Notes: generated from the letters alone by a model not told the origin. A stretch of DNA of 64,000 nt from Halorubrum persicum (GCF_002727125.1 NZ_NHOA01000009.1:1-64000), one strand, 5' to 3'; positions 5,554 through 15,272 are shown, numbered from the stretch's first letter. Numbers and translations are program-made.

Positions 5554-5565
5554 CGAACATATTCG
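5554..5565. promoter_or_regulatory. palindromic operator candidate CGAACATATTCG
   Basis: This 12-bp CGAA-N4-TTCG palindrome ends 37 bp before the ctaB start, overlapping the TATA position. The same arrangement recurs upstream of the Cu-ATPase gene (12987-12998), and related forms lie near the other promoters of the nitrogen-oxide island. Confidence 0.5.
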
Positions 5566-5602: not shown

Positions 5603-6964
5603 ATGGATCGACCACGGCTCACGACGCTTCTGGTCTGGTCAGTCGTGGGGACGTATCTGCTCGTCGCGCTCGGGGCGACTGCCGCCGCGGACGCCGGTGC
5701 CGCGGTCGCCGCGATCCACCAGGTCGCCGCGGTCGCCGTCGGCGCGCTCCTCGCCGTCACGGCGCTCGTCGCCCAGCGGACGGCGGCCGCTCGCGGAATC
5801 CGCGTCGGAACGATCGCCGTCCTGATCGCCTACGCGGGACAGGCGGGCGTCGGGCTCGCGGGGCAGACCGGCGTCGCCCCGTTCGACGGCGGCCTCCACC
5901 TGTTGGGCGGGGTCGCGGTGTTCGCCGTGCTCCTCGTCACGCTCGTGCTCAGGGTCGAGGCGACCGCGACCGTCTCGAGCGCCGACGGGTCTCTGGGCGG
6001 CTCGGCCGGTCGGGCGTCGTCGAACGAACCTGACGGGACCGCCGACCCCTCGGCGCCCGGCGGCGGCGGGCTCTCGTTTCGGGACCGGGGGCGGGCGTAT
6101 CTCGAACTGACAAAACCCCGGCTGATGTGGCTGTTGTGCCTGCTCGCGCTGGCCGGGATGGGATTGGCCGCCGTGGGCGGCGCAACGCTCGACGGCGTAA
6201 CCGTCGTCGCGACCCTGGGCGGCGGCGTCCTCGCGACCGGGGCGTCCGGGGCGTTCAACCACATCTACGAGCGCGACCGCGACCGGAAGATGCGGCGGAC
6301 CGCGGACCGACCGATCGCGACCGATCGAGTCGGCGTCCGGCGCGCGGTCGGCTTCGCCGTCGCGCTGGTCCTCGCCTCGATGGCGGTCATGCTCGCCCTC
6401 GTCAACGCGCTCGCGGCCGCGCTCACCGCGGCGGCGATCGTCTACTACGCGTACGTCTACACGGTGCTGTTGAAGCCGACCACCAAGTGGAACACCGTGA
6501 TCGGCGGGGGGTCGGGCGCCCTGCCCGCCCTGATCGGGTACGCCGCGGTGACCGGGACCGTCCGCCTCCCGGCCGTCCTGCTCGCGGCCGTCGTCTGCTG
6601 TTGGACGCCGGCGCACTTCTACAACCTCGCGATCGCTCACCGCGAGGACTACGCGCGGGCCGACTACCCGATGCTCCCGGTCGTCGCGGGCGTCGGGACC
6701 GCGCGGCGACGGATACTCGCGTGGCTCGGCGTCACCCTGATCGCCGCGGTCCTGCTCGGGAGCGTCACCGGGCTCGGCGTCCTCTACGCCGTCACCACCA
6801 CGGCGCTCGGGGCGCTGTTCGTGCGAAGCGTGGTCCGCCAGTACGACGTCGACCAGCGGGACGCCGGGGAGGAGCGGGCCGCCGCGTATCGGAGCTTCCA
6901 CGCCTCGAACGCCTATCTCGGGGCCGTCCTCGCGGCGATCCTCGTGGAGACGTTCGCGATGTGA
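5603..6964 (+). CDS. ctaB: protoheme IX farnesyltransferase (heme O synthase) fused to an N-terminal CtaA-like four-helix half
   Basis: This 453-aa integral membrane enzyme attaches a farnesyl group to heme b to make heme O for heme-copper oxidoreductases. Residues about 165-453 are the UbiA-type CtaB domain: LELTKPRLMWL, the first Asp-rich motif as NHIYERDRDRKMRRT, and KPTTKWNTVIGG. The first 120 residues form four membrane helices with conserved histidines (IHQVAAVAVG and GGLHLLGG) and a Gln-Ala-Gly-Val motif. This pattern resembles half of heme A synthase CtaA. An acidic/Gly-rich linker joins the halves. The gene sits just before a heme-copper oxidase-type operon, fitting heme supply to it. 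A CGAA-N4-TTCG palindrome lies at the promoter. Confidence 0.88.
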   Translation: MDRPRLTTLLVWSVVGTYLLVALGATAAADAGAAVAAIHQVAAVAVGALLAVTALVAQRTAAARGIRVGTIAVLIAYAGQAGVGLAGQTGVAPFDGGLHLLGGVAVFAVLLVTLVLRVEATATVSSADGSLGGSAGRASSNEPDGTADPSAPGGGGLSFRDRGRAYLELTKPRLMWLLCLLALAGMGLAAVGGATLDGVTVVATLGGGVLATGASGAFNHIYERDRDRKMRRTADRPIATDRVGVRRAVGFAVALVLASMAVMLALVNALAAALTAAAIVYYAYVYTVLLKPTTKWNTVIGGGSGALPALIGYAAVTGTVRLPAVLLAAVVCCWTPAHFYNLAIAHREDYARADYPMLPVVAGVGTARRRILAWLGVTLIAAVLLGSVTGLGVLYAVTTTALGALFVRSVVRQYDVDQRDAGEERAAAYRSFHASNAYLGAVLAAILVETFAM

Positions 6965-7044: not shown

Positions 7045-7056
7045 CGAACATGTGCG
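7045..7056. promoter_or_regulatory. degenerate CGAA-N4-TTCG-type site upstream of the heme-copper operon
   Basis: CGAACATGTGCG matches the ctaB palindrome in 11 of the first-half and spacer pattern positions, with one mismatch (TGCG for TTCG) in the second half. It lies about 50 bp before the first gene of the operon at 7106. Confidence 0.35.
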
Positions 7057-7105: not shown

Positions 7106-7261
7106 ATGAGCAACCGTACGAGATCCGACGGTGACGACGTTCCAGCGATGCAACGCCTCTATAATCGCATCTGGCTGTTGGCCGCGGCGGCGATCGTGTT
7201 CTTTCTCGTGGCCTACGTCGGGTGGGGACTGCTCGATCTCCTGTCGCTCCCAGTGAGGTGA
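7106..7261 (+). CDS. 51-aa single-helix membrane protein at the head of the heme-copper operon
   Basis: The product begins MSNRTRSDGDDVPAMQRLYN and has one hydrophobic helix (about residues 22-44, IWLLAAAAIVFFLVAY). It ends eight bases before the CuA subunit II gene, so co-transcription and co-assembly are expected. Small one-helix subunits (for example subunit IIa of Thermus ba3 oxidase) are known partners of B-type heme-copper enzymes, and this is the natural analogy. The ATG at 7106 is preferred over 7052 because it is followed by a typical acidic N-terminus. The function is inferred from position only. Confidence 0.7.
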   Translation: MSNRTRSDGDDVPAMQRLYNRIWLLAAAAIVFFLVAYVGWGLLDLLSLPVR

Positions 7262-7268
7262 CCGAGAG

Positions 7269-7811
7269 ATGAGCAACCCACTCGACGACCCCGACGACGA
7301 CTGGTGGAACACGCCGGTGCACCGCCGCGAGAGCATCTGGCTGGGGCTCGCGGGCGCGTGGTCGCTCGGCATCTTCACGTGGATGGCGGGGTTCACGCAG
7401 TTCGGCGACCAGAACCCGATCGGCACGACGTACGAGGTCGACCCCGACCAGTATCAGGAGCGCGTCGGCGAGTACAAGGAGGCCGCCGAGGAGACGGACG
7501 ACGGCCTGATCCCGCCCGGCGACGACGTGTACGTCGGCGCGATGCGGTTCAACTGGGACGGGCTCCCGGCCGTCCTCGAGGCGGGACGCGAGTACGACAT
7601 CCACCTCGGCGCCTACGACGTGCAGCACGGCTTCTCGGTCAGGCCGGAAGAGAACCTGAACAAGCAGATCAACCTTCAGGTGTTCCCGGGCTCCGAGTGG
7701 GTGATCCCGATGACCTTCGACGAGCCGGGCACCTACCACGTCGTCTGTAACGAGTTCTGCGGCCAGGGCCATCGGACGATGCACGGTCGCTTCACGGTGG
7801 TGGAGGGGTAG
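7269..7811 (+). CDS. CuA-containing subunit II of a B-type heme-copper oxidoreductase
   Basis: This 180-aa subunit receives electrons from a blue-copper or cytochrome donor and passes them to subunit I. One membrane helix lies at about residues 22-44. It is followed by a periplasmic-side cupredoxin domain. The binuclear CuA site is complete: H120 in VQHGFSV, then C160, E162, C164, H168 and M171 in CNEFCGQGHRTM. It is short, like subunit II of Thermus-type ba3 oxidases. The stop is followed one base later by the ATG of subunit I, so the two are coupled. The CuA site shows a soluble metal-protein donor rather than quinol. Confidence 0.92.
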   Translation: MSNPLDDPDDDWWNTPVHRRESIWLGLAGAWSLGIFTWMAGFTQFGDQNPIGTTYEVDPDQYQERVGEYKEAAEETDDGLIPPGDDVYVGAMRFNWDGLPAVLEAGREYDIHLGAYDVQHGFSVRPEENLNKQINLQVFPGSEWVIPMTFDEPGTYHVVCNEFCGQGHRTMHGRFTVVEG

Positions 7812-7812
7812 C

Positions 7813-9537
7813 ATGTCGGCGATCGCCTCCCTCTTCCGGAACGACTACGGGTCGGACGGCTTCCGAACCTGTTCGGTGACCGGACTCGACATCCACCGAT
7901 CCGTGGAGAACTACGTGAAGCTGTTCGGACTGACCGCGGTGATCGCGCTCGCGGTCGGCGGGAGCTTCGCGTTCTCCGTCGCGATGACGCGTTGGGAGTT
8001 CGTCGGCCTCCTCGACCCGAGCAGCTACTACACGCATCTGAGCATACACGCGTGGAACCTGCTCATCTTCTGGATGGTGTTCATGGAGATCGCCGTCCTC
8101 TACGTCGGCGGTCCGATGGTGCTCGGCCGGAAGCTCCCGCTCCGTCGGCTCGCGACCCTCGGTTGGGTCACGATGGTGGCCGGGGCGATCGGCGTGAACG
8201 CGTCCATCTGGCTGGCCGAAGCGCCCAACGAGGCGCCGCTGTTGACGGCGTACGTCCCGCTTCCCGTCACGCCGTGGTTCTACGGCACGGCGATCCTCTT
8301 CCTGCTGGGGGCCACGATCGCGGCGGTCCCGTTCTTCGCGACGATCTGGACGGCGACCCGCGACAGCAGCAGAACCCTCCCGCTCGTCGCCTTCGGCGCG
8401 TTCGTCACCGGGATCATCGCCGTGGAGGCGATCCTCGGCGGGATCGCCGCGTTCGCGTACGCGCTCGCCTGGCGGATCGACCTCATCGCCTCGGTGGACC
8501 CGGGGATCTATCGGCAGCTCTACTGGATCGTCGGCCACGGGACACAGCAGATCAACCTGCTCGCGATGATCACGGTGTGGTACTTCCTGACGCACGTGGT
8601 GGGCGGCGCGGTGGTGATCTCCGAGAAGGTCTCGCGGACCGCCTTCATCCTCTACCTCTTCTTCATCAACCTCGGGGCGGCCCACCACCTGCTCGTCGAC
8701 CCCGGTATGTCCGCGGGGTGGCGCATCTGGAACACCTCCTACGCCTTCTACGGGGCGGCCTTCGCGAGCATGATCCACGCGTTCGCGATCCCGGCGGGCA
8801 TCGAGGCCGGTCGGCGGCGGCGGGGACAGGGCGGCGGGCTCTTCGGCTGGCTCACCTCCGCGCCGTGGCGAAACCCCGTCTTCGCCTCGACGATCTTCAG
8901 CATCATCCTCTTCGGGTTCCTCGGCGGGATCACCGGCGTCGTGATGGGGCAGGTGCAGGTGAACATGACCTGGCACAACACCCTCGCGACGGTCGGTCAC
9001 TTCCACGCGACCGTCGCGCTCGGGACGACGCTCGCGTTCTTCGGGCTCGTCCTCTTCGTCATCAAGACGATGTTCCGCCGTGACTACGTCTCGGACACGC
9101 TGGCGAGCGCGATCCCGTACGCCTACGGGGCCGCGATGAGCGTCGCCACGCTGATGTTGATGTACGCCGGGATCCTCTACGGCGTGCCGCGCCGGACCGC
9201 CGAGGCCGTCAGGAACATCCCCGGCTCGGAGTTCAGCTTCTCGGCCGCGATCCCGATATTCATGATCTTCGGGGTCTTCGCGCTCCTGGCCATCCTCTCC
9301 GGCGTCCTGTTCGTCGGCGTCTCGGTCGGCTCGCTGCTGTTCGGCGGTCGGCTCCCCGCCGGCGACGACGGCGGGATGTTGCCCGAGGGCGGGCTCCACG
9401 CCGACGGCGGAGAGCCGATCCACGCGGTCGAACTCCGCGGGACCTTCGCGCTCTGTCTGATCTTCCTCGGCGTCTTCGCCGCCGTCTACGTGTTGAACTG
9501 GTACCTCCTGACCCAGCTGTGGGCGATCGGCGCGTAG
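7813..9537 (+). CDS. heme-copper oxidoreductase subunit I lacking the active-site tyrosine; candidate NO reductase
   Basis: This 574-aa protein has about 13-14 membrane helices and all six metal-ligand histidines: H79 for the low-spin heme, H242, H291 and H292 for CuB, and H396 and H398 for the two hemes. In oxygen reductases of the A and B families the first CuB histidine is followed four residues later by a tyrosine that cross-links to it (HPxVY). Here the stretch is HGTQQ (242-246), with Gln at the tyrosine position. The Glu-rich segment of classical cNOR/qNOR is also absent. Neighbouring genes encode a CuA subunit, heme O synthase and nirK. I infer a non-classical NO reductase of the CuA-linked kind (families such as sNOR, gNOR or nNOR). 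Automated annotation would call it cytochrome c oxidase subunit I. Confidence 0.85.
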   Translation: MSAIASLFRNDYGSDGFRTCSVTGLDIHRSVENYVKLFGLTAVIALAVGGSFAFSVAMTRWEFVGLLDPSSYYTHLSIHAWNLLIFWMVFMEIAVLYVGGPMVLGRKLPLRRLATLGWVTMVAGAIGVNASIWLAEAPNEAPLLTAYVPLPVTPWFYGTAILFLLGATIAAVPFFATIWTATRDSSRTLPLVAFGAFVTGIIAVEAILGGIAAFAYALAWRIDLIASVDPGIYRQLYWIVGHGTQQINLLAMITVWYFLTHVVGGAVVISEKVSRTAFILYLFFINLGAAHHLLVDPGMSAGWRIWNTSYAFYGAAFASMIHAFAIPAGIEAGRRRRGQGGGLFGWLTSAPWRNPVFASTIFSIILFGFLGGITGVVMGQVQVNMTWHNTLATVGHFHATVALGTTLAFFGLVLFVIKTMFRRDYVSDTLASAIPYAYGAAMSVATLMLMYAGILYGVPRRTAEAVRNIPGSEFSFSAAIPIFMIFGVFALLAILSGVLFVGVSVGSLLFGGRLPAGDDGGMLPEGGLHADGGEPIHAVELRGTFALCLIFLGVFAAVYVLNWYLLTQLWAIGA

Positions 9538-9622
9538 GCGCCGACCGTCCGGACCACCGTCTGCTCTCACGCCCGAACGACCGACCCGATCGCCGCCCGA
9601 CCGACAACGAGACATCCCACGA

Positions 9623-10312
9623 ATGACCGACGCTTCCCGACCGACGACCCGGACGCGACTCGGCGGTATCGTACGCCAGGCGTGGCGCGACTTCCTGAGC
9701 GTGTACTACGCGAACACGCCCGTCTGGCGCTGGCTCAAGAGCGGCGCGCTCGTCTTCCTCGGGTTCTTCCTGTGGATGGGCGGGAACGTCCTGACGGCGT
9801 ACTGGACCGAGGCGATCGCGCTCCGGTACGCGATCGCGTACGGCTTCGTCCTGATCGGGTGGGGGCCGCTCACGCACCTGCTCGTCGTGCCGGCGGTGAT
9901 CCGACTGCGCCGCACCGCGGAGAACCCCACCGTCAGGCGGATCGCCCGCAACGGGTCGACGATCAACTTCACGACGTTCCTCGTGATCGTCGCGCTCGTG
10001 GGAACCCTCGCGCCGGGCGTGATGCTGCTCGACTTCTCGTCCGGCTTCGGCGCCGACGGCGGCGACGTGACGGCGGACCTCGTCTGCGAGACGGGCGGCG
10101 ACCCGATCACCTGCGAACTCGAGACCGCCGAGGGGGTCGACCACGTGGTGCTCCTCTCGGGGGGCGAGGAGATCGACCGCAGCGGCGAGCCGCCGTACGC
10201 GGTCTCGGCGCCCCGCGAGTCGCTCTCCGACGGCCCCTCCGGGGCGCAGTTCGTGGTCGAGCTCCGGGGCCTGAACGGCGAGACCCTCCGTCGGTTCGTT
10301 CGGACGGTCTGA
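9623..10312 (+). CDS. three-helix membrane protein with exported C-terminal domain, companion of the heme-copper operon
   Basis: I do not recognise this 229-aa protein. It has hydrophobic helices at about 39-57, 66-90 and 112-134 and a C-terminal domain of about 90 residues expected outside the cell. That domain has two cysteines eleven residues apart (VCETGGDPITCEL) that could form a disulfide. It follows the subunit I gene by 85 bp in the same direction, and it ends before the convergent Cu-ATPase gene. An accessory subunit or assembly factor of the preceding enzyme is the simplest reading, but there is no motif proof. Confidence 0.65.
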   Translation: MTDASRPTTRTRLGGIVRQAWRDFLSVYYANTPVWRWLKSGALVFLGFFLWMGGNVLTAYWTEAIALRYAIAYGFVLIGWGPLTHLLVVPAVIRLRRTAENPTVRRIARNGSTINFTTFLVIVALVGTLAPGVMLLDFSSGFGADGGDVTADLVCETGGDPITCELETAEGVDHVVLLSGGEEIDRSGEPPYAVSAPRESLSDGPSGAQFVVELRGLNGETLRRFVRTV

Positions 10313-10365: not shown

Positions 10366-12948
10366 TCACTCCCGGAGCACCGACCGCGTCGAGTTCGTCA
10401 CGACGATCCCGCTGCTGGCGGCCATCGCCAGGGCGGCGAAGAAGGGGTTGAGCGCTCCCGCGACCGCGAGCGGGATCGCCACCGCGTTGTAACACAGCGC
10501 CCACGCCACGTTCTCTCGGATGCGCCGCCGCGTCCCCGCCGCGAGGTCGAACACGGTCTCGACCGCCCGGAGGTCCTCACCGGCGATCACGACATCCGCG
10601 GCCTCGACGGCGCGAGCCGTCCCGTCGCCCATCGCGATGCCGAGGTCGGCCGCCGCGAGCGCCGGCGCGTCGTTGGTGCCGTCGCCCACCATCACGGTGG
10701 GCCCGGCGGCGGCGAACCCGCGGATCGCCTCGAGCTTCCCGTCCGGCGGCACGCCGGCGAAGACCTCGTCCACCGCGGGGTGGTGCCGGAACCGGTCGGC
10801 CCGCGGGCCTTCGTCGCCGGTCAGGACTGCCACCTCCCGGTCGGCGAACGCTTCGAGGGCCGCCGTCCAGCCGGCTCGGTCGCGGTCCTCGACGGCGATC
10901 ACGCCGCGGGCGGCGCCGTTCCATCCCACCACGACCGGCAGGGCGCCCCGATCGGCGACGGTATCGACGCGCTCCCGCAGATCCTCGGGGAGCGGATCGC
11001 ACTCGCGTTCGACGAGATCGGCGGTCCCGACGACGACGCGCGAACCGGGGGGCCGGGAATCGGACTCCCCGCCGTCGCCGGCGGCGAGCGTCCCGGAGAT
11101 GCCGGCGCCGGGATGGCGGGTGAACGACTCCACCCGCGTCTCTCGTGGGCGATCGTCGATCGGAGGGCGATCGTCGGTCGGTGGGCGGTCGTCTGTCACC
11201 ACCTGATCGCCCGCCGCAGCCTCCCGGATCGCGTCCGCGACGGGGTGGTCGGCGCGGCGTTCGACCGCGGCGGCGCGCCGAAGCGTCCGGTCGTCGCCGT
11301 ACGTGGCGCTGACGCGCATCTCCCCCGCGGTGAGCGTCCCGGTCTTGTCGAACACGACCGTCTCGGCGTCCCGAGCCACCTCGAACACCGAGGCGTCCGT
11401 GACGACAACGCCGCGATCGAGCGCGTCGCGGAGCCCGCCGGAGACGGCGAGCGGGGTCGCGAGCCCCATCGCGCACGGACAGGAGACAACGAGGACGGTC
11501 AGTCCGGCGAGCATCGCGCCGGCGATCGGTCCGCCGGTCACGAGCCGCCAGCCGGCGACGAGCAGCCCGATCGTCAACACGACCGGCACGAACACCGTGG
11601 CGAGCGCGTCGACGAACCGCTGGATACCGGGGGTCGCGGTCTGGACCTCCCAGAGGGCGGCGGCGAGGCGGTCCGCGGTGCTCTCGGCGTCCTCCCCGAC
11701 CGCCATCACGATCGCGCCGGCCGACTCGTCCGCTCCGCCGTCGGCCGCCCGGACATCGCCGAGGAGCGTCGCGCCGCCGATGACGGTCTCGCCGGGCTCC
11801 TTTCGCACCGGCAGCGACTCGCCGGTGAGCACGGACTCGTCGACGTCGGCGGTCCCCTCGATCACGGTGCCGTCGATCGGCACGCGTTCGCCGGGCGTGA
11901 CCCGGACTCGGTCGCCCGGCTCGAGGTCCGCGATCGGGACGGTTTCGGCGCCGGCGTCGGTCACGCGCGTCGCCGACTCGACGCGAGCGGCCGTGGCGGT
12001 TTCGAGGAGGTCGTTCGCCCGCGCGCGGACTCGGCCCTCGTAGTACCGCCCGAGCGAGACGACCATCACGACCGCGACCGTGACGTCGTAGTACAGGTGC
12101 GTGCTGCCGGTCGCGAGCGCGAGGGTGCTGTACGCGTACGCGGACAGCGCGGCCACCGCGACGAGCAGGTCCATGTTCGGCCGACGCGCCCGGACGCTCA
12201 CGTACGCGCCGCGGAGGAGCGGCGCCCCCGTGTACGCCAGCAGGACGGTCGTCAGGAGGGCGATGAACGCCAGCGGCAGATACCGCCCCGCGGCGGTGGT
12301 CGTGTCGATCGCGAGGACGTTGGTCTCGACGCCGAGGTAGCTCGGGTACAGCGACAGGACGTACCACGGCATGATCAACACCGCGAGGAAGCCGCCGACC
12401 GCGAGCCGCTCGACCGTTCGGTCTGCCGGGCTCGCCTCACCCTGGCCGGCGTCTGTACCCGCATCGCGACCGCTCTCCGTCGCCGACCCGTCCCGAAACC
12501 GGAGCGTGTAGCCGTATCCGGAGAGCGCCGTCGGGAGCGCCGCGCGCGCGATCTCCTCCGGATCGTAGACGACCCGAGCGGTCTCGGTCCCGTAGTTGGC
12601 ATCGACCGCGTGCACGCCCGCCCGATCGTCGCCGCGCAGGTCGAGGAACGCCTCGCAGGTGGTACAGTGCATCCCGTCGACCGCCAGATAGGCCTCGGCC
12701 GCGTCCGACGGGGGCGCCGACTCGGGCGCCGCGTGGTCGTCTCCGGCCGGCGCACGGTCTTCTCCGGCCACCGCTCCTTCGGTCCGGCTCCCCTCCGTCT
12801 CGTCGTCGTTCGCCGCGTCGCCGCCGTCCGCCTCGTCGAGTCGGCGAGCCACCTCCAGACAGCCGCGACAGCAGAACTCGCCGTCGACGCCGGGCGTCGT
12901 GACGGGCGGGTCCGGGGTCGGGAGATCACAGAGCCGACAGTCGGCCAT
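10366..12948 (-). CDS. copper-type P1B ATPase with CcoI/FixI-like Cys-rich N-terminus
   Basis: This 860-aa heavy-metal pump couples ATP hydrolysis to copper movement across the membrane. Domains in order are: a Cys-rich zinc/copper-binding head (CRLCDLP and FCCRGCLEV); an HMA-like domain with GMHCTTC; membrane helices with the metal-selectivity motif SCPCAMGLATPLA; the phosphorylation motif VFDKTGTLT; the nucleotide-domain HP in RRADHPVADAI; and VGDGTNDAPALA in the hinge. The Cys-rich head plus HMA is the layout of CcoI/FixI/CtpA pumps that load copper into heme-copper enzymes. That fits the adjacent CuA/CuB enzyme and nirK. The ATG at 12948 (MADCRLCDL) is preferred to the one seven codons upstream. 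A CGAACGTGTTCG palindrome lies 39 bp before it. Confidence 0.9.
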   Translation of the reverse strand: MADCRLCDLPTPDPPVTTPGVDGEFCCRGCLEVARRLDEADGGDAANDDETEGSRTEGAVAGEDRAPAGDDHAAPESAPPSDAAEAYLAVDGMHCTTCEAFLDLRGDDRAGVHAVDANYGTETARVVYDPEEIARAALPTALSGYGYTLRFRDGSATESGRDAGTDAGQGEASPADRTVERLAVGGFLAVLIMPWYVLSLYPSYLGVETNVLAIDTTTAAGRYLPLAFIALLTTVLLAYTGAPLLRGAYVSVRARRPNMDLLVAVAALSAYAYSTLALATGSTHLYYDVTVAVVMVVSLGRYYEGRVRARANDLLETATAARVESATRVTDAGAETVPIADLEPGDRVRVTPGERVPIDGTVIEGTADVDESVLTGESLPVRKEPGETVIGGATLLGDVRAADGGADESAGAIVMAVGEDAESTADRLAAALWEVQTATPGIQRFVDALATVFVPVVLTIGLLVAGWRLVTGGPIAGAMLAGLTVLVVSCPCAMGLATPLAVSGGLRDALDRGVVVTDASVFEVARDAETVVFDKTGTLTAGEMRVSATYGDDRTLRRAAAVERRADHPVADAIREAAAGDQVVTDDRPPTDDRPPIDDRPRETRVESFTRHPGAGISGTLAAGDGGESDSRPPGSRVVVGTADLVERECDPLPEDLRERVDTVADRGALPVVVGWNGAARGVIAVEDRDRAGWTAALEAFADREVAVLTGDEGPRADRFRHHPAVDEVFAGVPPDGKLEAIRGFAAAGPTVMVGDGTNDAPALAAADLGIAMGDGTARAVEAADVVIAGEDLRAVETVFDLAAGTRRRIRENVAWALCYNAVAIPLAVAGALNPFFAALAMAASSGIVVTNSTRSVLRE

Positions 12949-12986
12949 CAGTCGTGATCGGTCGGCCACCCACGAGACCCTATTCG

Positions 12987-12998
12987 CGAACGTGTTCG
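12987..12998. promoter_or_regulatory. palindromic operator candidate CGAACGTGTTCG
   Basis: This CGAA-N4-TTCG palindrome lies 39-50 bp upstream of the Cu-ATPase start on the minus strand, just beyond the TATA position. It has the same two half-sites and spacing as the ctaB site at 5554-5565. Confidence 0.5.
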
Positions 12999-13316: not shown

Positions 13317-13976
13317 ATGACACAGGCACGCCTCGTCGTCGAGCTTCCGGACGGCCCGTGGGCGGCCGACGTGTCCCGCGAGTTCCCGGAGGCGACGTTT
13401 CGGGTGATCGCGGGGCTCCCCGGGGACGGCCCGGGGTTCGCGCTCGTGTGGATAACCGCCCCGGAGGTCGAAGCGGTGCTCGAGGCGATGGAGTCGCACC
13501 CGTCCGTCACCGAGACCTCGGTCGTGGGGCGGGCCGACCGTGAGGTTACGGTGCAGTTCGAAACCTCGGCGCCGCTGCTGCTCCTCGCGGCGAAGCGATC
13601 CGGCGTCCCCTTCGAGATGCCCGTCGAGATCAGCGACGGCGACGCGATCATCGACGTCACCGGCGCCCACGACCGGATCTCGGAGCTGGGCCGGCAGTTC
13701 GACGACCTCGGCCTGGAGTTCCGCGTCAAGCACGTCCAGGAGCGGCTGCAGGCGAGCCAGCTCCTGACCGAGACCGAACAGGAGCTGCTCCTCAGCGCGA
13801 TCGAGGAGGGGTACTACGACACGCCGCGAACCTGCTCGCTCACCGACCTGGCCGACTGCGCCGGATTCGCGAAGTCCACCTGCAGCGAGGCGCTCCACCG
13901 CGCGGAAGAGGTCGCCGTCAAGCGGTTCGCCGAGGACCTTCCGCCGCAGGCCGACGCCGACGAAGCGACCGAGTGA
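13317..13976 (+). CDS. HTH-10 (Bat-type) transcriptional regulator, NarO-like candidate for denitrification control
   Basis: This 219-aa haloarchaeal regulator has an N-terminal sensory domain of about 150 residues. The C-terminal HTH-10 domain (about 155-210) begins LTETEQELLLSAIEEGYYD and contains LADCAGFAKSTCSEALHRAEE. Three cysteines fall in or beside the helix-turn-helix (TCSLTDLADC and STC), which could sense redox state or bind metal. In Haloferax volcanii, NarO, a regulator of this class, controls nitrate respiration. The position of this gene between a copper pump and nirK makes an equivalent role plausible. The sensory domain does not name a ligand. The CGAA/TTCG palindromes around it are the natural candidate targets. 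Confidence 0.78.
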   Translation: MTQARLVVELPDGPWAADVSREFPEATFRVIAGLPGDGPGFALVWITAPEVEAVLEAMESHPSVTETSVVGRADREVTVQFETSAPLLLLAAKRSGVPFEMPVEISDGDAIIDVTGAHDRISELGRQFDDLGLEFRVKHVQERLQASQLLTETEQELLLSAIEEGYYDTPRTCSLTDLADCAGFAKSTCSEALHRAEEVAVKRFAEDLPPQADADEATE

Positions 13977-14171: not shown

Positions 14172-15272
14172 ATGACGCTACTCCCCAACATCGAACGGCG
14201 CTCGTTCCTGAAAGCCGCGGGCCTCGGCGGGGTCGCCGCGCTCGCCGGCTGTGCCGAGGACAGTACGGACGCCGCGGCGTCGACCACGTCGGCCCAAACG
14301 TCGGACTCGTCCGGCGCCGCGTCGGTCGACGTGGACAGGATCGCCGCGGATCCGACTGACGTGCCGGACCCGGTCGACTGGAGCCAGCCGCGCACGCACG
14401 ACGTGACCCTCGAGACGCAGGAGCTGACCGCCGAGATCGAGCCCGGCGTCACCTTCGACTACATGACCTTCGAGGGTCGGGTTCCGGGGCCGATGGTCCG
14501 CGTCCGCCGGGGCGACACGGTGAACCTCACGCTGCGGAACCCCGAGAGCAGCAAGATGCCGCACAACATCGACTTCCACGCCGTCTACGGGCCCGGCGGC
14601 GGGGCCGACGCGACGACGATCGCGCCGGGCGAGGAGGCCACGATCGAGTTCAAGGCCACCTACCCCGGCGTCCACATCTACCACTGTGCGGTCCCGAACA
14701 TGGACCACCACATCAGCGCGGGCATGTTCGGTGCCATCCTCGTCGAGCCGAAAGGAGGGCTTCCGGAGGTCGACCGCGAGCTCTACCTCGGCCAGCACGA
14801 GATCTACACGGACAAGGCGGCGGGCAAGGAGGGCCACCACAAGTTCAGCCTCGAGGCCGCCAAATCCGAGGACCCGACCTACGTGACCTACAACGGCGAG
14901 GCGTACGCCTTCACCGAGTCGGGGTACGGTCGGATCCAGGTCGAGCAGGACGAGCGGATCCGGGTCTTCATGTCCAACGGCGGCCCGAACCTCAGCAGCT
15001 CGTGGCACGCGATCGGCAACGTCTGGGACAAGCTCTACCGGGACGGCGACCTCGTCTCGGACCCCGCCCGGTTCGTGGAGACGACGCCGGTCAGGCCCGG
15101 CACCGTCACCGCCGCCGAGATCAAGACGCCGGTGCCCGGTCCGATCAAGCTCGTCGATCACTCGCTGACTCGGGTCGTCCGCAAGGGGGTTCTCGGTGTC
15201 CTCGACGTGCAGGGCGAGCAGAGACCGGACATCTACGACCCCAATCCCAACGGCGATTCCGGCGGCGAGTGA
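14172..15272 (+). CDS. nirK: copper-containing nitrite reductase (NO-forming)
   Basis: This 366-aa exported two-domain cupredoxin reduces nitrite to NO. A twin-arginine signal (ERRSFLKAAG) is followed by a lipobox-like LAGC, so it is probably lipid-anchored outside the cell. Type 1 copper ligands are H131, C172, H180 and M185. Type 2 ligands are H136, H171 and H330, and the catalytic pair is D134 and H279. All are present, so the enzyme should be active. It follows the HTH-10 regulator and shares the region with a candidate NO reductase, which would remove its toxic product. A GGAGG sequence 9 nt before the ATG indicates a leadered transcript. Confidence 0.95.
   Translation: MTLLPNIERRSFLKAAGLGGVAALAGCAEDSTDAAASTTSAQTSDSSGAASVDVDRIAADPTDVPDPVDWSQPRTHDVTLETQELTAEIEPGVTFDYMTFEGRVPGPMVRVRRGDTVNLTLRNPESSKMPHNIDFHAVYGPGGGADATTIAPGEEATIEFKATYPGVHIYHCAVPNMDHHISAGMFGAILVEPKGGLPEVDRELYLGQHEIYTDKAAGKEGHHKFSLEAAKSEDPTYVTYNGEAYAFTESGYGRIQVEQDERIRVFMSNGGPNLSSSWHAIGNVWDKLYRDGDLVSDPARFVETTPVRPGTVTAAEIKTPVPGPIKLVDHSLTRVVRKGVLGVLDVQGEQRPDIYDPNPNGDSGGE

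Follow-up and report, generated by a model that had tools for sequence, protein, structure and literature searches.

A predicted eNOR-type nitric oxide reductase operon and its genomic partner protein in the haloarchaeon Halorubrum persicum

The heme-copper enzyme eNOR, a reductase of nitric oxide (NO), has reportedly been studied biochemically in Rhodothermus marinus, and the literature on its family is said to include Hemp and Gennis (2008) and Murali et al. (2024, PNAS). It is listed as B-related and biochemically characterised, and sNOR, gNOR and bNOR (CuANOR) are also listed as B-related heme-copper NO reductases (PMC11388526). eNOR is defined by a glutamine at the position of the oxidase tyrosine together with a cupredoxin subunit II (PMC8756737), and the active-site residue at that position is Asn in sNOR, Asp in gNOR and Asn in bNOR (PMC8756737, Table A4). 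An eNOR cluster has been reported for Natronomonas and "throughout other Halobacteria", and the enzyme is predicted to have a single K-type proton channel (PMC8756737). In contrast, a broad survey stated that NorZ (qNOR) is the only class of NO reductase in haloarchaea (PMC8400030). Here we describe a four-gene operon at positions 7106-10312 (plus strand) in a 64,000-nucleotide stretch of Halorubrum persicum DNA (GCF_002727125.1, NZ_NHOA01000009.1:1-64000), referred to below as the window. By its sequence the encoded enzyme belongs to eNOR, a family already published, so the kind of enzyme is not new, and it is very probably an NO reductase from the B-type branch of the heme-copper oxidases. 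The boundaries proposed in the original prediction for this locus fit the following four genes.

7106-7261, plus strand: first gene of the operon, a 51-residue single-helix protein resembling the small subunit IIa of ba3
7269-7811, plus strand: subunit II, 180 residues, an N-terminal helix and a CuA cupredoxin domain (match in the PDB to ba3 subunit II, E = 1e-14)
7813-9537, plus strand: subunit I, the eNOR-type heme-copper catalytic subunit, 574 residues, with Gln245-Gln246 in the active site (PF00115, E = 1e-50)
8536-8550, plus strand: HGTQQ, residues 242-246 of subunit I, with the CuB ligand His242 and Gln246 for the oxidase tyrosine (ba3 alignment)
9623-10312, plus strand: third protein, 229 residues, with three membrane helices, a C-terminal Ig/Fn3-like domain and two invariant cysteines

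Among proteins in the PDB, subunit I is closest to Thermus ba3 (phmmer, E = 1e-34). The ba3 segment GHPIVYFWLL aligns on GHGTQQINLL, which makes His242 the CuB ligand and puts Gln246 at the position of the cross-linked Tyr237, as expected from the claim that HGTQQ replaces the HPxVY of oxygen reductases. The six heme and CuB histidines that subunit I was said to keep (79, 242, 291, 292, 396 and 398) are all present; five of them are invariant in 85 relatives and His398 is kept in 83. Two otherwise typical eNORs from Thermus thermophilus plasmids (L039 and L041) carry Lys at position 398 (HFKGTV and HFKATV), that of the second axial ligand of the low-spin heme, and a changed heme ligation is possible in these. 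The motif GHxxQQ(I/V)N is kept in 85 of the 85 relatives, and E92, Q245, Q246, N248, Y281, N307, Y310 and H322 are invariant among them, across archaea and several bacterial phyla. The 11 B-type oxidases compared have V, Y and W at positions 245, 246 and 248, T at 322 and, in 10 of the 11, F at 281; their residues at 92, 307 and 310 are mixed, position 310 being Asn or Leu in most. The Glu-rich CuB/FeB helix of cNOR and qNOR (HxWVEG...E) is indeed absent from subunit I, which reads HGTQQINLL there as against HMWVEGAFEFF in the qNOR of the same genome. The AlphaFold2 model has a heme-copper oxidase fold with a predicted local distance difference test (pLDDT) score of 82.8, residues 383-393 falling under 50; ba3 heads its Foldseek list, and a second structural comparison ties ba3 with aa3 at a Z of about 35. 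The cytochrome c oxidase label TIGR02891 was rejected for subunit I (45 bits, cut-off 671).

The family placement agrees with the active site. In a tree built without the columns of the active-site helix and without the remote qNOR/cNOR outgroups, the Gln sequences (n = 40) form one clade with support 100/99, present in 100% of 200 bootstrap trees, and the Tyr-bearing B-type oxidases (n = 12) form their own clade (100/99), sister to it. Placement within the B-type oxygen reductases, which had been named as an outcome that would contradict NO reduction, was thus looked for, and the Gln clade stands apart. Subunit I falls in a haloarchaeal subclade with Rhodothermus and Salinivenus sequences; its nearest named relatives are from Halorubrum species (96% identity), and those from Rhodothermota share 60-62%. 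A single genome scan gave at least 517 matching relatives, so this protein is not a chance occurrence. Since the published definition joins Gln to a cupredoxin subunit II, and the window has Gln246, a CuA subunit II encoded immediately upstream and a grouping with Gln-type proteins outside the B-type oxygen reductases, the complex qualifies as an eNOR on the features open to sequence analysis. The other classes were rejected on the same features: B-type oxygen reductase, by the missing cross-linked Tyr four residues after the CuB His and by the tree; cNOR/qNOR, by the missing Glu-rich FeB helix; and sNOR/gNOR/bNOR, by Gln in place of Asn, Asp or Asn. Of the "candidate non-classical NO reductase" of the original prediction, NO reduction by a CuA-type enzyme other than cNOR or qNOR remains the best-supported part, and what falls away is the idea of an enzyme without a described family. 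The Rhodothermus and Salinivenus eNORs (L067 and L070) are nested among the haloarchaeal ones, which suggests gene transfer between salt-lake bacteria and haloarchaea.

Subunit II has the complete CuA set ascribed to it (H120, C160, E162, C164, H168 and M171). H120, C160, C164, H168 and M171 are invariant in the 85 relatives, and position 162 is E in 83 and D in 2. With ba3 residue numbers and channel roles taken from general knowledge of that structure, E21 of subunit II (kept in 84 of 85 relatives), Y257 and S319 align with ba3 E15(II), Y248 and S309, whereas ba3 T312 is replaced by the invariant His322 and ba3 Y244 is lost. These residues could form the one proton channel that eNOR is predicted to have, through which the enzyme might also pump, and the invariant Y281 and Y310 may stand in for the lost tyrosine.

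The third protein adds a new element to the analysis of eNOR. It has no match in Pfam or NCBIfam; its model (pLDDT 82.8) combines three predicted membrane helices with a C-terminal beta-sandwich that resembles Ig/Fn3 domains (best Z 8.4 over 70 residues), and two of its cysteines are invariant. We surveyed 292 haloarchaeal genomes, in which eNOR-like matches at 60-96% identity are separated by a clean gap from ordinary B-type oxidases at 33% or less, and 53 of them carry eNOR. A profile search recovers the full-length third protein in 52 of these 53; the exception, by elimination, is G034, whose eNOR match is itself incomplete (5-528 of 574). The 239 eNOR-free genomes gave two fragmentary matches and no full-length copy. 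Genomes of Rhodothermus and Salinivenus hold one copy each, and two genomes with two eNORs hold two copies; the remaining bacterial eNOR genomes examined lack it, as does one plasmid record. By genome co-occurrence, the third protein is therefore an obligate partner of haloarchaeal eNOR, and this one-to-one pattern marks it as either a subunit specific to the subclade, which is the probable case, or a dedicated assembly factor. No earlier description of it was found in the literature searched, which did not include Murali et al. 2024.

The two fragments in eNOR-free genomes (G036:C2:672398-672878 and G280:C1:2742450-2742845) look like remnants of lost eNOR loci. Some haloarchaea have two eNOR copies, namely Halorubrum amylolyticum (L047 and L049), G208 and G299; two copies of the third protein are found in each of G302 (H. 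amylolyticum) and G299, and G208 gave two matches to it.

Across the same survey, eNOR travels with the copper nitrite reductase gene nirK. In tests that ignore phylogeny, nirK is found in 50 of 53 genomes with eNOR and 108 of 239 without it (odds ratio 20, P = 4e-12), and in the control, ordinary ba3 against nirK among the eNOR-free genomes, the odds ratio is 2.4. Within the window's genus, nirK is present in all five eNOR-bearing genomes and in 6 of the 30 others (P = 0.0014). The two genes lie 3-12 kb apart in at least 16 genomes; in the window, nirK starts 4.6 kb downstream of the subunit I stop, in agreement with the claim of a nearby nirK. Thirty-seven genomes have nirK and no qNOR, and 17 of these carry eNOR instead.

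The genes and sites around the operon are the following.

5554-5565, no strand assigned: operator-like site CGAACATATTCG, 49 bp upstream of ctaB
5603-6964, plus strand: heme o synthase CtaB/CyoE, 453 residues (NF003349 and TIGR01473 above cut-off)
7045-7056, no strand assigned: near-palindrome CGAACATGTGCG, 61 bp before the start of the eNOR operon, matching the haloarchaeal operator (CGAAYATDKTYG / CGAACATGTTCG)
10366-12969, minus strand: copper-type P-type ATPase, 867 residues, with an HMA domain (TIGR01525 above cut-off, TIGR01511 just under)
12987-12998, no strand assigned: operator-like site CGAACGTGTTCG, about 29 bp ahead of the homology-based start of the copper ATPase gene
13317-13976, plus strand: regulator of the HTH_10/BAT type (PF04967, E = 2e-13; PF15915)
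14172-15272, plus strand: copper nitrite reductase NirK (TIGR02376, 389.9 bits against a cut-off of 296.3)

Haloferax mediterranei has the semi-palindrome CGAAYATDKTYG upstream of nirK, nor and nosZ, and the nor and nosZ promoters are less active when this element is mutated (PMC10062603). Five sites in the window differ from CGAACATGTTCG by at most one mismatch, where 0.17 are expected; matches inside coding sequence (7864 and 62209) were put aside. Among haloarchaeal and Rhodothermota relatives, which are not independent of one another, a site with at most two mismatches precedes the eNOR operon in 15 of 27 cases and the copper ATPase gene in 17 of 21, as compared with about 4.5% of random stretches of the same loci. 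A perfect site stands upstream of the qNOR gene of the same genome, and none was found before the ba3 or aa3 oxidase genes in the upstream stretches examined. The eNOR operon, ctaB and the copper ATPase gene thus appear to share the denitrification operator of qNOR. The HTH_10/BAT regulator encoded beside nirK may be the missing regulator of this eNOR/denitrification regulon and is a candidate activator of the cluster; its homologues lie close to eNOR in several relatives, and in some of these a denitrification-type site is found upstream of them.

The copper ATPase gene adjoins eNOR in most haloarchaeal eNOR loci, and its product is a likely supplier of copper for the metal sites. The small one-helix gene keeps its position in most eNOR loci, and P13, Q16 and W40 of its product are invariant across 57 relatives. 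Among bacterial eNORs, the neighbours in Thermus are a NirK-like protein, DUF542 and an Rrf2 regulator, and Defluviimonas has a hemerythrin there. Several bacterial eNOR genes also adjoin a second, strongly diverged heme-copper gene with a GGGHALQF or GGGHVLQ motif and no His-His (HH) pair (L124:11106-12614, L084:13620-15095, L099:13306-14979 and G301:C17:14559), which in L099 is followed by its own gene for a CuA-like subunit.

The genome of the window (3.58 Mb in 158 contigs) encodes two oxidases, aa3 and ba3, each of which has the usual Tyr motif, and the search for a qNOR (norZ) gene elsewhere in it found one (C1:81746-84031), so eNOR is not its only candidate for NO reduction. Because the genome retains these two ordinary O2 reductases and qNOR, eNOR would be its second NO reductase. 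No nosZ above cut-off and no clear match to a nitrate reductase were found in the genome, and N2O is thus the expected end product. Nine hits to halocyanin-like cupredoxins, together with the CuA site, make a soluble copper protein, and not quinol, a plausible electron donor.

These features can be combined into a working model. NirK enzymes reduce nitrite to NO outside the membrane, and the NirK encoded 4.6 kb downstream is likely to supply it here. Halocyanin or another small copper protein would pass electrons to CuA of subunit II, from which they would reach the low-spin heme (His79, His398) and then the high-spin heme/CuB site (His396; His242, His291, His292), where two NO would be converted to N2O and water. 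In oxidases, the tyrosine gives the fourth electron for the splitting of O2; with Gln246 at its position, the site appears suited to the two-electron chemistry of NO. Protons would probably enter by a remodelled K-type channel, from E21(II) to Y257, S319 and H322 with the eNOR-specific Y281 and Y310, and for this reason turnover may conserve energy. The third protein would act as a clade-specific subunit or dedicated assembly factor, and the eNOR operon, ctaB and the copper ATPase gene would be controlled through the type of operator that also precedes qNOR.

Could the enzyme still be an oxygen reductase whose tyrosine has moved to another helix, as in the cbb3 oxidases? Its fold matches ba3 and aa3, and Y281 in helix VII and Y310 are invariant in the 85 eNORs where most B-type oxidases have Phe/Leu and Asn/Leu, respectively. 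A tyrosine supplied in this way, the other outcome named as contradicting NO reduction, was looked for at the C-family position, which is six residues before HH in three of three cbb3 sequences compared (position 285 here): this is Ile or Leu in 85 of 85 eNORs, which also excludes C-type (cbb3) membership, and Y281 lies ten residues ahead of HH, not six. The genome already has two Tyr-bearing oxidases, and linkage to nirK and a denitrification operator are not what an oxidase would predict, so we regard this explanation as very improbable. A misassembled or decayed oxidase gene, with its tyrosine lost through drift, deserves hardly any credence: no support for it was found, and conservation refutes it. 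The gene has an intact reading frame, its Q245, Q246 and N248 do not vary in archaea or in several bacterial phyla, and relatives keep the operon as well.

The role of NO reduction is less settled than the identity of the enzyme. eNOR reduces NO under micro-oxic conditions (PMC11388526), many genomes carry it besides qNOR, and genes for NO stress adjoin its bacterial relatives; it could therefore serve mainly for detoxification or at low oxygen, perhaps with some O2 reduction, and be protective, not respiratory. This is compatible with eNOR identity, but we consider it rather unlikely, given that eNOR shares its locus with nirK, a heme synthase gene, a gene for copper supply and the denitrification operator, which fits a respiratory unit, and that the putative K-channel positions are conserved. 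Several points weigh against our view of the operon as an NO reductase. We infer the NO-reductase activity of haloarchaeal eNORs from sequence, and some B-family oxidases have a side activity with NO. The genome already has a qNOR, and eNOR and qNOR occur together in 35 of the 53 genomes; such coexistence leaves a specialised or different role for eNOR possible. Three eNOR-bearing genomes lack a nirK match, the nirK of the window has a poor operator match (three mismatches), and the within-genus comparison is the sole correction for phylogeny in the co-occurrence tests. Taking the evidence together, we lean towards a broader proposal: the haloarchaeal and Rhodothermota eNORs would be a four-component variant with the Ig-like third protein as an obligate, undescribed subunit, and they would work, either beside qNOR or in its place, as NO reductases that are under denitrification control and conserve energy.

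At the level of sequence, eNOR in 53 of 292 genomes and the earlier note on Halobacteria (PMC8756737) contradict the statement that qNOR is the only haloarchaeal class (PMC8400030). eNOR would be a second route from NO to the greenhouse gas N2O, one missed by surveys of haloarchaea, and its genes are annotated as cytochrome oxidases. The 17 genomes that carry eNOR among the 37 with nirK and no qNOR need not be NO emitters. The channel residues suggest that eNOR may pump protons, in which case NO reduction in haloarchaea could yield energy. The third protein, one-to-one with the subclade, offers a simple marker for it and a new candidate subunit to test.

Compared with described systems, the window operon shares with the eNOR family the Gln at the Tyr position, the B-family relation, the cupredoxin subunit II and the small helix protein upstream; the haloarchaeal/Rhodothermota subclade adds the third protein, which the other bacterial eNOR genomes checked do not have. 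Thermus ba3 (1EHK) has the same fold, metal ligands, CuA subunit II and most proton-channel positions, but it belongs to a separate clade, and in the window enzyme its Tyr237, V236, W239 and T312 are replaced by Gln, Gln, Asn and His and its Y244 is lost. The sNOR, gNOR and bNOR enzymes are B-related as well, with their listed Asn, Asp and Asn against Gln246. The qNOR/NorZ of the same genome shares the predicted reaction, 2 NO to N2O, but is a distant homologue only, a single fused chain with a Glu-rich FeB helix and no CuA.

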